NCBI RefSeq assembly: GCF_000143985.1
Contig: NC_014364.1
Span: 2,852,001-2,916,000 of the forward strand
Reading direction: 5' to 3'
Source of the DNA: Sediminispirochaeta smaragdinae DSM 11293
GTDB lineage: Bacteria > Spirochaetota > Spirochaetia > DSM-16054 > Sediminispirochaetaceae
Length of the DNA stretch: 64,000 nucleotides
The position numbers were made by a program, and so were the translations under genes. The stretch's first letter is position 1; each line of letters starts with the position of its first letter. A model generated the notes under the pieces. The model was given only the letters and a program-made list of their open reading frames with translations, did not search any database and was not told where the DNA came from. This document shows positions 47,350-52,379 of this stretch, in pieces.

Positions 47350-47401
47350 TTGACACAAACACAAAGAAAAGTTATCGTGTCTTTAGATTAGTCTTACCTA
47401 A
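47350..47401 (+). promoter_or_regulatory. Iron-operon promoter with DtxR/IdeR-like box
   Basis: TTGACA (47350-47355) with a -10-like TTATCG at 47372-47377 is followed at 47383-47401 by TTAGATTAGTCTTACCTAA. This matches the DtxR/IdeR consensus TTAGGTTAGSCTAACCTAA at 16 of 19 positions, and S accepts C or G. A metal-bound repressor here would block early elongation of the siderophore-uptake operon. Confidence 0.75.
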
Positions 47402-47449
47402 TTTAAAAAGCTGAAACAAATTCATACCAATAACGGAGGCTACTACAAC

Positions 47450-48577
47450 ATGAACCATCCCCCTTATCGCACCATGATACTGTTGCTGACCATGGTACTG
47501 CTGACCGCCTCCGGCTACCTTTTTGCCGGAGGACATCAGGAACAGGAAAACACCCCACCTTCAGCAGCCAAGGAAACTATTTCCATCATCGATCAGACCG
47601 GACGGGAAGTCTCTGTTCCGAAGGAAGTCCGACGGATTGTCACCATCCCTATCCCGGCGGCCAGCATGCTGATTGCGATCGACGGCGGCACAGAACGGCT
47701 TGTGGGGATGCACCCAAAATCAAAATCCGCTCTTGAAGAAGGCATTCTCAAAGAGTTCTACCCGGAAGCCTTGAGGATAAACAGTGAGGTTGTGGGAGAT
47801 GGCTTTATGCCGAATGTAGAGGCGATGCTTGCGCTTAATCCCGATCTCATTTTTCAGTGGGGGCATCTGGGAGTCGATGTCGTCGAACCACTGGAAAATG
47901 CGGGTCTGAATGTTGCACTGCTTTTGTACGGCAGCCAGGAAAATCTCGAAGGCTGGATCCATGACTTTGGCCTCTTGTTGGATAAAGAGGAAAAGGCGCA
48001 AAAAATCATTGCGTGGCACCATGAGGTACAGGAAGAAATCGGCAGCGCAGTGGCCGAGATTCCCGAAAATGAAAAGCCAAGGGTCCTCTATTTTCTCCGG
48101 TGGCTTTCGAGTAAAACCGTTGCGGCACAGGGAACCTATAATGATTTCTACATCAACCTTACCGGGGGAATCAATCCCGCAGGTGAGTTGACACAGTTTC
48201 CTCAGGTCAGCGAAGAACAGATCATCGCATGGGACCCGCAGATCATCCTGCTCAACGGCTTCGAATCCGAACTGACGCCTCAGGATATCTACGGCAACCC
48301 GAAGCTGGCCGATGTCAGTGCGGTCAGAGACCATCGTGTCTATAAAATTCCCCTTGGCGGATACCGATGGGATCCCCCGAACCAGGAATCACCCCTGATG
48401 TGGAAATGGCTTGCCATGCTGTTCCATCCCGAGCGCTTCGGCTGGGACCTGCGGAACGAGATTAAGGAAAACTATCTCTGGATATATGGGAAGGTACCCA
48501 CGGAAGAGCAGATAGACGGTATTCTGAGAAAAACCATGAATAGCGAAGCCGCCGGGTACGACCGCTTTCTACAATAA
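47450..48577 (+). CDS. Iron-siderophore/cobalamin-type ABC substrate-binding protein (FepB/BtuF family)
   Basis: 375 residues. The signal peptide ends Y-L-F-A-G-G-H-Q with no lipobox. The mature protein begins I-S-I-I-D-Q-T-G-R-E-V-S-V-P and has the helical-backbone layout of class III binding proteins (L-N-P-D-L-I-F-Q-W, W-D-P-Q-I-I-L-L-N). A DtxR-like box upstream points to iron or a metallophore rather than cobalamin. Confidence 0.9.
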   Translation: MNHPPYRTMILLLTMVLLTASGYLFAGGHQEQENTPPSAAKETISIIDQTGREVSVPKEVRRIVTIPIPAASMLIAIDGGTERLVGMHPKSKSALEEGILKEFYPEALRINSEVVGDGFMPNVEAMLALNPDLIFQWGHLGVDVVEPLENAGLNVALLLYGSQENLEGWIHDFGLLLDKEEKAQKIIAWHHEVQEEIGSAVAEIPENEKPRVLYFLRWLSSKTVAAQGTYNDFYINLTGGINPAGELTQFPQVSEEQIIAWDPQIILLNGFESELTPQDIYGNPKLADVSAVRDHRVYKIPLGGYRWDPPNQESPLMWKWLAMLFHPERFGWDLRNEIKENYLWIYGKVPTEEQIDGILRKTMNSEAAGYDRFLQ

Positions 48578-48590
48578 ACAGGCACTTCCT

Positions 48591-49616
48591 ATGCAACAAC
48601 GGAGAAACGAAAAGAAGGCGTGGATTCTTCTTTGCACTGCTCTGCTTCTTTCGGCTCTCATCTCCTTCGGCCTGGGCAGATACACCATAGCCATACCTAA
48701 AGTGGCTGGAATTCTCGCCTCGAAACTTTTTCCGATTGCGCCCTACTGGAGTCAGACCGATGCCAGAGTGGTGACATTAATACGACTTCCCCGGGTTCTG
48801 TTCGCAATCTTGTCGGGAGCAGGCCTTGCCATGAGCGGGGCCGTGCTCCAGGGGGTATTCAGAAACCCACTGGTGGGACCACAGGTCATCGGAGTGACGG
48901 CGGGCAGCGGCTTCGGTGGAGCGCTTGCAATCATGCTCTTTAGCAGCCAATTCCTGAACATGATCTTTGCCTTTGCCTTTGGCCTTGCGGCAGTGGCGGC
49001 GGTCTTCCTTTTGAGCCGAAGCAAGGGGCACTCACCAATCTTGATGTTGGTATTATCCGGTGTCATTGCAAGTGCTTTTTTCACCGCCCTCACCTCTCTC
49101 ATTAAATATGTCGCGGATCCCTACGATAAGCTTCCCGCAATCGTCGTTTGGCTTATGGGAAGCTTCTCCACCATTACCTACAAAAAGCTTGTTGCATCGG
49201 CCATTCCCCTGATTTTGGCCGGCAGCTTCCTCTTTCTCATCAGATTTCGTATCAACATCGTCAGTTTGGGTGAGGAGGAAGCCGAAGCGATCGGAGTAAA
49301 AACCGATAGACTGCGCTGGATGATTCTGATTGCCGTGGCGGTCATCACGGCAGCGGTCGTGTCGGCGGCGGGAATTGTGGGATGGGTTGGTCTTGTTGTT
49401 CCCCACATGGCGAGAATGATCGTCGGTCCCGATCACCGGAAGCTTTTGCCGGCATCGGCCTTGATGGGCGGCACCTATATGCTTTGGGTCGACAACCTTG
49501 CACGAAGCGCCACTGCCGCGGAGATTCCTTTGGGAATCATCACCGCAATCATAGGAGCCCCGGTATTCGGCTATCTGCTCAAGAAAAATCAGGCGAAGGG
49601 ATGGAAACATGATTAA
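48591..49616 (+). CDS. FecCD-family metal-chelate ABC permease
   Basis: 341 residues with ten predicted helices. L-R-L-P-R-V-L-F-A-I-type helix 2 start, L-Q-G-V-F-R-N-P-L-V-G-P and G-L-V-V-P-H-M-A-R-M-I-V-G are FecCD/BtuC landmarks. A single permease, so it should act as a homodimer. It overlaps the ATPase gene by 8 bp. Confidence 0.94.
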   Translation: MQQRRNEKKAWILLCTALLLSALISFGLGRYTIAIPKVAGILASKLFPIAPYWSQTDARVVTLIRLPRVLFAILSGAGLAMSGAVLQGVFRNPLVGPQVIGVTAGSGFGGALAIMLFSSQFLNMIFAFAFGLAAVAAVFLLSRSKGHSPILMLVLSGVIASAFFTALTSLIKYVADPYDKLPAIVVWLMGSFSTITYKKLVASAIPLILAGSFLFLIRFRINIVSLGEEEAEAIGVKTDRLRWMILIAVAVITAAVVSAAGIVGWVGLVVPHMARMIVGPDHRKLLPASALMGGTYMLWVDNLARSATAAEIPLGIITAIIGAPVFGYLLKKNQAKGWKHD

Positions 49617-50349
49617 AGTTGAGGGAATTTCTTTTCGCTATACAAGAGAACAGACCGTCTTTGCAAACCATTCGTTTCAGCTTGAGAGCGGAAGGTCCCT
49701 TGCAATCCTTGGTCCAAACGGACAAGGGAAAACAACGATGCTCAAATGCATGATAGGACTGTTACGGGTCGATACAGGGAGCATCTTTATCGACGGTGAA
49801 TATGGCTATGTTCCGCAACGGGAATCTTCGATCTTCTCATATTCGGTTCTCGACATGGTGGTCATGGGCAGGGCACGACACATCCCGCTTTTCACCTCAC
49901 CCAAGCCAAAGGACTATCGAATAGCCGAATCCGTGTTATCGATGATGGAAATGGAATCCTTTGCAGAACGCCCTTTTAACGAGCTATCGGGTGGAGAGCG
50001 ACAATTAGTTTTGATAGCCCGGGCACTTGCCTCGGAATGCTCCATTCTGGTTCTGGACGAACCGACATCGGCACTGGATTTCAGAAATCAGAGCAGAGTG
50101 TTGCAAGTTATACGTGGCCTGAGTCAGGAACATGGCATAAGCGTGGTGTTCACAACCCATTCACCGAACCACGCAGTCCATGCGGCCGATGATGTACTGC
50201 TTATGTACGACCCGGCAGACTATCGCTACGGGACTGTTGAAGAGGTGATGACCGAAGAAAACCTAAAGCGGCTTTACGGTCTTGAAATACGAACGTTTGA
50301 GTATGTACATGAAAACGGCAAAGGCCGGGCAATCGTGCCGGTCTTATAA
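49609..50349 (+). CDS. Metal-chelate ABC transporter ATP-binding protein (FecE/BtuD family)
   Basis: 246 residues. Walker A G-P-N-G-Q-G-K-T-T, Q-loop V-P-Q-R, signature L-S-G-G-E-R-Q, Walker B I-L-V-L-D-E-P-T-S-A-L-D and switch His (T-T-H) are complete. The start has AAGGGATGG upstream and overlaps the permease stop. The 3' neighbour begins 28 bp later. Confidence 0.94.
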   Translation: MIKVEGISFRYTREQTVFANHSFQLESGRSLAILGPNGQGKTTMLKCMIGLLRVDTGSIFIDGEYGYVPQRESSIFSYSVLDMVVMGRARHIPLFTSPKPKDYRIAESVLSMMEMESFAERPFNELSGGERQLVLIARALASECSILVLDEPTSALDFRNQSRVLQVIRGLSQEHGISVVFTTHSPNHAVHAADDVLLMYDPADYRYGTVEEVMTEENLKRLYGLEIRTFEYVHENGKGRAIVPVL

Positions 50350-50377
50350 GACGTTAGAAAAAAGAAAGGAGACGCAT

Positions 50378-51631
50378 ATGAACAAGATAGGTGTGCTGTA
50401 CTCGGGAATAAGCTTTCAGCATCAGACATTGAACGATCCACAGTACCGGGGTCAGTTTATTCCCATCAATATATATGACCTACCCGAGATAGACCTCTCG
50501 CTATACGATGCAATAATCGTACCACGTTCGGTCGACCAGGTGGCCTTAAGGGATTATAAGAGAGTTATTGAAGAGTTTCTGGATCTTCCCGGCATCCTGA
50601 TTGTGCTCGGAGATTACAACGGCGGTTGGCTACCGGGATGTCAGCCGGGAGGCTTTACACGAGAGGATGATGAGCCCCTCATTAAGGTGGAAGAGCACCC
50701 GATCCTAAAGGATATCGAATCGGAAGATTTGCATTGGCATAAAGGGATCAACGGGCTCTGCAGCCATGGGCACCTGGTCCCCCCTGCCGGGGCGAAAACC
50801 CTCATCAGGAATCAGCGGGGAGATACCATCCTCTATGAAGACAGAAGCAGTACAAAGGGGATCATCATCGCAGGAAGCCAGTTTGATATTTTTTGCCACT
50901 GCTTTTCAAGGGATGAAGGTGCGGCACGAGCCTTACGAAACATCATTACCTGGGTTGGGGAAGAGGCCCCGCTGATTCGGGAAAAACGGAAGCAGCATCC
51001 CATAGGGGTCATCTACAGCGGCCTTCATTTTCATTACAACCTTTTTACCCGCCCGGAATACGAGGATATGGAACTGCTTTATATTCGTCGGCTTCCCCGG
51101 CTCGATCTGAACAGGTATCGGCTTATCATCATCCCCAGGGAAAGCAACCAGGAAATGCTCTATGCCCAACGGGAAAAATTAATCAGGTATCTGGAGGCAG
51201 GCGGTACTATTCTCTCTTTTGGAGAGGTTATTCTCCCGTGGATGCCGGGGCTGATATGGAACAAGGATTTACCGCAGGTCTGCTACCCCAAGGATGCCGA
51301 CAAAGCGTACAAGCCCGGCGAGGTGTACACAGATAATTTACTCATTGAAAAACCGGAACACAGCCTCTTTGAAGGCCTCAGCATGGAAGATCTCAAGTGG
51401 CATTATCATGGAGTTTTCGCCCCTCAGCCGGGACAGGAAATCCTGCTTTCCAACGGACAAGGTAAGGCGGTCATCCTCCTGGACGAGGCGAGCTTCAAGG
51501 GCAGATTGCTGGCCACCACCCTGGATCCCGAGGAACACGCAGGTTTCGGCGAGGTAAAGATTACCGAACGCTTTCTTGCCCGCTGTATGGCCTGGGCCAG
51601 AGAGATCATTGCGGAAGGGAGTCCCGTATGA
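50378..51631 (+). CDS. Tandem-duplicated protein of unknown function in the iron operon (amidotransferase-like fold suspected)
   Basis: 417 residues made of two homologous halves, about 4-197 and 209-410. Both start I-G-V-[LI]-Y-S-G-x-x-F, then have L-P-x-[IL]-D-L-x-x-Y-x-x-I-I-[VI]-P-R, a G-x-I-L-x-x-G-[DE] turn, W-L/M-P-G, and a late E-D-L-x-W-H motif (residues 119-123 and 340-345). The alternating strands recall class I glutamine-amidotransferase-like (ThuA-type) domains. However, the nucleophile elbow has Asp or Glu where Cys is expected, so ordinary amidotransfer is unlikely. No signal peptide. I do not recognise a family. The ATG at 50378 has AGGAG upstream. The gene overlaps the next by 4 bp, binding both to iron uptake. 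Confidence 0.8.
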   Translation: MNKIGVLYSGISFQHQTLNDPQYRGQFIPINIYDLPEIDLSLYDAIIVPRSVDQVALRDYKRVIEEFLDLPGILIVLGDYNGGWLPGCQPGGFTREDDEPLIKVEEHPILKDIESEDLHWHKGINGLCSHGHLVPPAGAKTLIRNQRGDTILYEDRSSTKGIIIAGSQFDIFCHCFSRDEGAARALRNIITWVGEEAPLIREKRKQHPIGVIYSGLHFHYNLFTRPEYEDMELLYIRRLPRLDLNRYRLIIIPRESNQEMLYAQREKLIRYLEAGGTILSFGEVILPWMPGLIWNKDLPQVCYPKDADKAYKPGEVYTDNLLIEKPEHSLFEGLSMEDLKWHYHGVFAPQPGQEILLSNGQGKAVILLDEASFKGRLLATTLDPEEHAGFGEVKITERFLARCMAWAREIIAEGSPV

Positions 51632-52323
51632 ACAACGGTATGAACAATATCAGCATAGAGACAGCAGCCCTCAAAACGATACTCTACGGTATTCTAAGCT
51701 GCCAATGTCCCGTATCGGAGAAAACGGAAGCGTCTCTTTTTGCCGAATATCGAAAAACGCCCGAAGAAGGAACGGTGGCAATTGCACCCTTTCTTACCAT
51801 TGCAGATACAAATCCGGTAAAGACACCGTTACACCTCTTTGTTGAATTTGCATCCCTCTATCGGGAAGATCCCTTTGAATTCACCATCACACAAGATGAT
51901 GCTCTCCGATATTTCAGCACCAGGCCTCATTTCGACCGTATGCTCGGTCCCATCAATCCCCTTACCATATATGATCCGGCTTCTCATTTGGTAGGCCATA
52001 TGATGCTGCCGGTCAGCCCGGGAGAAAAAGACGGTGAATACCGATTTGAACATGAAGGGCACGTAATTCAGCTGAAGCATATCTTTCTTCCTCCGGATAT
52101 GGCAAAGCAAAAAGTCGAGGACTATGGCGTTCATTTCGGTATGATTCTCACGACTATCGATGCGCGCCAAAAAACGATGCTCCACTCACATTTGCAATTC
52201 ATAAAAGAGTTTCCGCAGCTCCTGGAGCGGGTCTCTGAAATAGATTATACAAGTTATCAGGGGCTGGGAGACTACCATATGCACATCAAAAGACGATATG
52301 AACGTGTTTTTCCTAAAGGATAA
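51628..52323 (+). CDS. Protein of unknown function, last gene of the iron operon
   Basis: 231 residues, no signal peptide or membrane helix. Mixed alpha/beta with a His-rich distribution: G-H-M-M-L-P, E-H-E-G-H-V-I-Q-L-K-H, D-Y-G-V-H-F-G-M, M-L-H-S-H-L-Q and G-D-Y-H-M-H-I-K-R-R-Y. Eight or more His lie in the second half, which could make a metal site. I do not recognise the family. It overlaps the duplicated protein by 4 bp (ATGA), and a terminator follows, so it belongs to the DtxR-box operon. Confidence 0.78.
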   Translation: MNNGMNNISIETAALKTILYGILSCQCPVSEKTEASLFAEYRKTPEEGTVAIAPFLTIADTNPVKTPLHLFVEFASLYREDPFEFTITQDDALRYFSTRPHFDRMLGPINPLTIYDPASHLVGHMMLPVSPGEKDGEYRFEHEGHVIQLKHIFLPPDMAKQKVEDYGVHFGMILTTIDARQKTMLHSHLQFIKEFPQLLERVSEIDYTSYQGLGDYHMHIKRRYERVFPKG

Positions 52324-52346
52324 AACAGGAAAGAAGATCCTAACAG

Positions 52347-52379
52347 GGGGAGGACCCACTCCCCTTCTTCCTCTTTTTT
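52347..52379 (+). terminator. Terminator of the iron operon
   Basis: Stem GGGGAG (52347-52352) / CTCCCC (52359-52364), with pyrimidine-rich sequence and six Ts at 52374-52379, 24 bp after the last stop. Confidence 0.6.

Follow-up and report, generated by a model that had tools for sequence, protein, structure and literature searches.

What might two proteins without a recognised family contribute to an operon that otherwise codes for a metal-type ABC importer? The question is raised by a locus in Sediminispirochaeta smaragdinae, from whose genome (one contig of 4,653,970 bases) a stretch of 64,000 nucleotides, here called the window, was analysed. A sequence-only reading of the window had described a protein of 417 amino acids (protein A) and a His-rich protein of 231 amino acids (protein B), which were thought to be locked into an iron-regulated siderophore-uptake operon and which might release or modify iron from an imported chelate, or to make or hydrolyse the chelator. 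Based on the analysis presented here, we tentatively propose, with somewhat less than even confidence, that the locus is an iron-repressed operon for the import of metal chelates and that protein A handles the chelate in the cytosol.

Organisation and control of the import operon

Proteins A and B are encoded by real open reading frames, which overlap by 4 bp as had been reported. They are preceded by genes for a substrate-binding protein (SBP), a FecCD permease and a FecE-type ATPase, and only 28 nt separate the stop codon of the ATPase gene from the start of the gene for protein A (Table 1). We infer that the operon is read as a single transcript. The FecCD permease, the Peripla_BP_2 SBP and the ABC ATPase all score above the cut-offs that mark a FecCD-type importer. 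The earlier description of a FepB/FecCD/FecE-type set therefore stands for these components, but not for FepB, as the SBP reaches 29.2 bits against the enterobactin SBP model (NCBIfam PRK10957), the cut-off of which is 205. The nearest solved relatives of the SBP are 4ovk, followed by 4pag, 4hn9, MolA (HI_1472; molybdate) and Ni-CeuE, and the protein is more similar to MolA/CeuE-type proteins than to FepB. FepB-like siderophore import is therefore not established, and neither is a siderophore in general, given the Nik/CntA-, Fbp- or NMT1-type importers with which protein A is paired in other lineages (see below).

Four promoter-type matches were found in the region versus 5.4 expected in shuffled sequences, and the one at position 47350 directly precedes a DtxR/IdeR-type operator, TTAGATTAGTCTTACCTAA, which begins 5 bp past the -10 box. 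This operator, with its low chance expectation in the window (Table 1), backs the earlier claim of iron regulation. The operator core, RTTAGNNTNNNCTAAY, is found at four sites genome-wide, all of them upstream of genes: feoAB, a flavodoxin-FecCD-FecE operon, an MMPL transporter gene and the protein A operon. As this count is near that of the reversed control (5 over both strands), the weight of these sites rests on the identities of the downstream genes. A DtxR-family C-terminal domain is matched once in the genome. Furthermore, TTAG-N6-CTAA-like sites are present upstream of two homologous operons (L009 and L022) and, in degenerate versions, upstream of those in L018 and L023.

Iron-dependent expression has been reported for an iron ABC transporter of the Aliivibrio salmonicida plasmid pVSAL320 (PMC2627896). 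The annotated stretch of this plasmid contains one such transporter with a fused protein A directly downstream, and we believe that this operon, which is homologous to that in the window, codes for the transporter of that study. The MMPL-family transporter gene, which is preceded by the operator-core site and adjoins an unclassified gene coding for 324 amino acids (L058, 2329-4765), is possibly a further member of the iron regulon.

Table 1. Features of the import operon in the window.
Feature	Position	Strand	Remarks
Import operon, whole	47350-52366	+	Order: promoter, DtxR-type operator, SBP, FecCD, FecE, protein A, protein B, terminator
Sigma-70-like promoter, TTGACA-17-TATCGT	47350..47378	+	10/12 matches; consensus match only
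DtxR/IdeR-type operator, TTAGATTAGTCTTACCTAA	47383..47401	.	Differs from TTAGGTTAGNCTAACCTAA at 2 positions; 0.01 sites expected by chance in window
Peripla_BP_2 substrate-binding protein, MolA/CeuE/4ovk-like	47450..48577	+	Pfam E=3e-23; PDB 4ovk E=4e-63; MolA 3psa E=1e-16
FecCD permease	48591..49616	+	Pfam PF01032 E=2e-85
FecE-type ATPase	49609..50349	+	Pfam ABC_tran E=2.7e-25; FecE model E=9e-36, under its cut-off
Protein A, 417 aa, fused N-type and C-type GATase1-like domains (predicted fold)	50378..51631	+	
N-type domain of A	50378..50995	+	Elbow G78-D79; family-invariant D53, G126, G131, G161
C-type domain of A	50996..51631	+	Elbow G282-E283; family-invariant W341, H342, G375, L382, D383, P384, H387, G389
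Codons of W341-H342-Y343-H344	51398..51409	+	W and first H in 22/22, second H in 18/22 C domains
Codons of D383-P384-E385-E386-H387	51524..51538	+	D, P and H in 22/22 C domains
Protein B, 231 aa	51628..52323	+	ORF; no family
Terminator-like hairpin, 3' of B	52345..52366	+	Consensus match; number found near chance

Protein A is a pair of related domains

The two halves of protein A are homologous, as the sequence-only reading had recognised. They align by blastp with an E-value of 5e-23 and 28% identity over about 200 amino acids, and both contain the motifs described for them (YSG, LPEIDL/LPRLDL, GD/GE and EDLHWH/EDLKWH). A comparison of the two broad domain families, N-type and C-type, by hhalign gave a probability of 99.8%. 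In a tree of 42 domains, the N-type and C-type domains form the two sides of one branch with a support of 100/98, indicating that the duplication predates the spread of the family and that the pair has been kept together. The two domains stay paired, usually as adjacent genes for about 200 amino acids each or as one gene in which they are fused in either order (N-C or C-N). A fusion of protein A to an ABC component was not seen. Protein A has no evident signal peptide and would be located in the cytosol.

It had been stated that protein A is unrecognised, and indeed neither a known unrelated enzyme family nor any other family in Pfam or NCBIfam was matched. Sequence-profile searches gave no significant solved relative, and no paper on the protein A family was found in the literature. 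Below threshold, homologues show similarity to ThuA, DUF4159, DUF4350 and GH42M in Pfam, which is consistent with the predicted fold. For ThuA (PF06283), the best homologue scores 17.4 bits versus a gathering cut-off of 33.4; for DUF4159 (PF13709), the C half encoded in the window scores 12 bits and a Rhizobium homologue 25.1 versus a cut-off of 25.9. Weak ThuA similarity is seen in 5 of the 22 C domains, and weak DUF4159 similarity likewise in 5 of 22.

A ligand-free AlphaFold model of protein A, built from 3 sequences only, has a pLDDT of 73.6 and a pTM of 0.66, with several loops, including residues 386-394, below a pLDDT of 50. In this model, the N half (residues 1-203) matches 8hx9 (Z 16.4, rmsd 3.0, 189 residues aligned), and the C half matches 2gk3 (Z 14.6, rmsd 3.1, 184 residues aligned) and the ThuA-like protein 1t0b (Z 13.9). 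Both halves are thus predicted to have a flavodoxin-like alpha/beta fold of the GATase1/ThuA-like type. The amidotransferase-like turn noted earlier indeed lacks the nucleophilic Cys: the elbow glycines are followed by D79 and E283, and no conserved Cys column is present in the 22 C or 20 N domains. Across the family, the elbow residue is variable (E, C, A, S, R or D). D383-P384 follows a late strand, apparently at the place where H-P-E is expected, as judged by inspection of the secondary structure and not by residue-level superposition. The residues listed in Table 1 as family-invariant are found in all 22 C domains and all 20 N domains, respectively, and the C domains also share H328 (21/22) and H344 (18/22).

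Distribution and genetic context of protein A

Protein A is rare in spirochaetes, being present in 3 of 98 relatives and in 4 of 393 genomes of the phylum. The survey beyond spirochaetes was based on plasmid records, and its counts are therefore not unbiased frequencies. In these plasmids, tblastn detected the family in Rhizobium, Ensifer, Agrobacterium, Methylosinus, Methylocystis, Cupriavidus, Aliivibrio, Paenibacillus and the haloarchaeon Natribaculum, where the homologues, if annotated, are labelled as hypothetical proteins. Neither A nor B was found in viral contigs.

At every apparently intact locus checked whose context could be read, an ABC importer is encoded beside or near protein A, and these loci span spirochaetes, alpha-, beta- and gammaproteobacteria, Paenibacillus and haloarchaea. 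Homologues of A are hence not mostly found away from metal transporters; rather, ABC importers adjoin them in distant taxa. In most loci the importer is of the FecBCD type, as in the window, in four further loci or genomes (G008, L009, G407 and L010, the last of which ends upstream at the contig end) and in Methylosinus, Methylocystis, R. etli, Shinella, Rhizobium BT03 and SL42, A. vitis, Labrenzia, Martelella, Aliivibrio, Cupriavidus and Microvirga. TonB siderophore receptors adjoin A in Methylosinus and Methylocystis, and in many proteobacterial loci A and FecBCD are joined by a third partner, an FmdE-like protein of 170 amino acids. NikA/CntA/Dpp-like importers accompany A in Paenibacillus, Paracoccaceae and genome G370, in which an ArsC-like gene is located between the SBP_bac_5 gene and A. 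Natribaculum luteum has an Fbp-like importer and Chelatococcus one of the NMT1/SsuA type. In genome G049 (L022, 3715-5297), FecBCD is present in an operon that looks to be decaying, with a frameshifted SBP gene and a protein A truncated in its N domain, and two degenerate plasmid remnants (L047 and L048) contain no intact importer. The A pair is also present in N. breve (L046), whose flanks come with no annotation table and are outside the importer-context tally. That relatives of protein A adjoin metal-type importers in haloarchaea as well as in several bacterial phyla probably reflects a general, overlooked step in the use of imported metal chelates.

Further genes lie close to some of these loci. 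In genome G370 (L019, 447-7408), genes for a NicO nickel transporter, a Nik/Opp-type SBP and a MinD/CbiA-like P-loop protein are located within a few genes of the A pair; CooC was considered for the P-loop protein and rejected, as the libraries return CbiA/MinD-like matches only. On plasmids of Proteus, Rhizobium, Martelella, Agrobacterium and Labrenzia (L050, 9001-13709; L051, 8998-13832; L040, 6803-12573; L044, 9830-15161; L037, 8382-12839), FecBCD and the FmdE-like gene are directly followed by phnG, phnH, phnI and phnJ, the phn set being shorter if it runs into the end of the stretch or plasmid, and the FecBCD importer occupies a position in which one might have anticipated a PhnCDE phosphonate importer. 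An E. coli ED1a plasmid (L049, 8995-12430) carries an NMT1/SsuA-type ABC importer flanked by two FmdE-like genes. The C-P-lyase genes near some A/FecBCD operons and the importer of Chelatococcus suggest that the substrates need not be iron chelates.

Protein B

Protein B is more narrowly distributed. With 12 His among 231 residues (5.2%) it is enriched in histidine, as had been described, but not to an extreme degree. No NCBIfam or Pfam family and no solved relative by sequence was found for it; in plasmids, only chance-level matches were obtained, and the structural model, with a pLDDT of 50, is unusable, its best PDB match reaching a Z-score of no more than 2.7. Homologues are present in five genomes including that of the window (the others being represented by G008, L009, G079 and G090), here in spirochaetes only. 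G008 has a second, partial copy of B; in this genome (L023, 3014-4363 and 10415-11821), a second copy of the SBP gene lies beside the broken partial B in what looks like a duplicated segment. The notion that both proteins are locked into the uptake operon holds for A, which is unrecognised, preceded by an iron-type operator and accompanied by importers in distant taxa, but not for B: in two of the five genomes, G079 and G090 (L020, 8282-9945; L021, 8663-10200), the B gene overlaps a MerR gene and precedes a 2,4-diaminopentanoate dehydrogenase-like gene, and neither a transporter nor A adjoins it. Protein B thus has no general link to metal import. C25, C27, H101, H124, H169 and H188 are invariant across the five homologues, which suggests that B may bind a metal, and it could possibly be a spirochaete-specific accessory protein with conserved CxC and His residues, perhaps a metal-binding or sensing partner. 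A kinship with the FmdE-like proteins, to which B is roughly collinear by eye, was dismissed after hhalign returned a probability of 1.3%.

Discussion

In our tentative model, the SBP, FecCD and FecE would import a metal chelate, and protein A would receive it in the cytoplasm. A would act as a pseudo-dimer, its two GATase1-like domains being ancient paralogues that have lost the amidotransferase nucleophile and the N-type domain mainly serving as a scaffold. In the C-type domain, W341-H342-x-H344, D383-P384 and H387 are probably located at the face of the old active site, and this site would bind the incoming chelate, coordinate the metal and help to release it. The main rival is a close one, though we consider it rather unlikely: protein A could be a metal-dependent enzyme (a hydrolase, lyase or isomerase) that, instead of passively accepting the chelate, chemically alters the imported chelator at the C-domain site like a ThuA-like enzyme and releases the metal in this way. 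Many enzymes share the GATase1/ThuA-like fold, an invariant Asp and two His are typical components of a catalytic site, and the weak ThuA and DUF4159 similarity of some C domains also favours an enzyme. However, the Cys nucleophile is missing, the elbow residue varies, and the use of one A family with several importer types suggests a reaction that is general and not specific to one substrate. We regard it as quite improbable that A is instead a regulatory partner of the importer, which senses the cytoplasmic substrate or metal and gates the ABC ATPase or permease. While the tight operon linkage, the two-domain fusion and the occurrence of A with unrelated permease types would fit such a role, we know of no binding surface common to FecE, Nik, Fbp and SsuB ATPases, the conserved polar residues resemble a site for a small molecule or a metal, and fusions of A to ABC components were not encountered.

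A further alternative concerns the substrate. It seems unlikely that A acts on a complex of another metal (nickel, cobalt or molybdenum), or on an anionic organic ligand, for instance a phosphonate chelate, instead of an iron siderophore. MolA and Ni-CeuE among the relatives of the SBP, the NikA/CntA-like SBPs adjoining A, the NicO gene near A in G370 and the C-P lyase genes that follow some A/FecBCD operons all point in this direction; against it stand the operator core common to feoAB, the reported iron-dependent expression of the pVSAL320 transporter (PMC2627896) and the TonB receptors in Methylosinus and Methylocystis. That A and B synthesise the chelator, as had also been suggested, is very improbable: apart from the position in the operon, nothing favours it, and no chelator-biosynthesis genes are present in the annotated or ORF-read flanks of A, which is always accompanied by uptake genes.

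With regard to known proteins, A shares the predicted fold of class I glutamine amidotransferases and differs from them by an elbow without the catalytic Cys and, by inspection, by a D-P in the apparent place of H-P-E. Each half of A resembles GATase1-like/ThuA-like proteins (1t0b, 4jqs, 3rht, STM3548 2gk3 and STM1381 3soz) with Z-scores of 13-16 over approximately 180-190 residues, and some homologues show the weak ThuA/DUF4159 sequence similarity described above. In contrast to these proteins, A remains under the Pfam gathering scores for ThuA and DUF4159, is composed of two paired domain types, carries its own W-H-x-H / D-P-x-x-H signature and is tied to ABC importers. A GATase1-like domain without the triad has been examined as a binding module in Agd3, where conserved exposed aromatic residues are found at the end of the old active site (PMC7229062). 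The likeness lies in the triad-less domain, with no claim of sequence similarity, and the Agd3 domain differs in being part of a fungal carbohydrate esterase. The importer itself has the SBP, FecCD and FecE components of FecBCDE, MolABC and CeuE-type systems, whereas its SBP belongs to a 4ovk-like branch and the operon adds protein A as a partner. The FmdE-like protein, the third partner in many proteobacterial loci, is absent from the window operon, and B is not detectably related to it.

To our knowledge, the release of metals from imported chelates in the cytosol has been explained for a few systems only, by reductases and esterases. FhuF, SIP and Fes are cytosolic proteins that release iron. 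A would have the same presumed place in the pathway, in the cytosol after FecCDE, but their folds and cofactors are unlike those of A, and they were not seen beside it. We speculate, at a level of confidence that makes this somewhat unlikely, that A represents a general class, unnamed so far, of acceptors of metal chelates in the cytosol of bacteria and haloarchaea, which consist of paired GATase1-like domains without Cys, need neither flavin, heme or an Fe-S cluster nor ester hydrolysis to take the metal from imported chelates and serve at least three unrelated types of ABC importer. If this is true, A could help to annotate many 'iron ABC transporter' operons that lack a known substrate, and next to FhuF, SIP and Fes the conserved, unnamed A pair, encoded together with importers of the metal type in organisms as distant as spirochaetes and haloarchaea, would provide a new and directly testable route of metal release.
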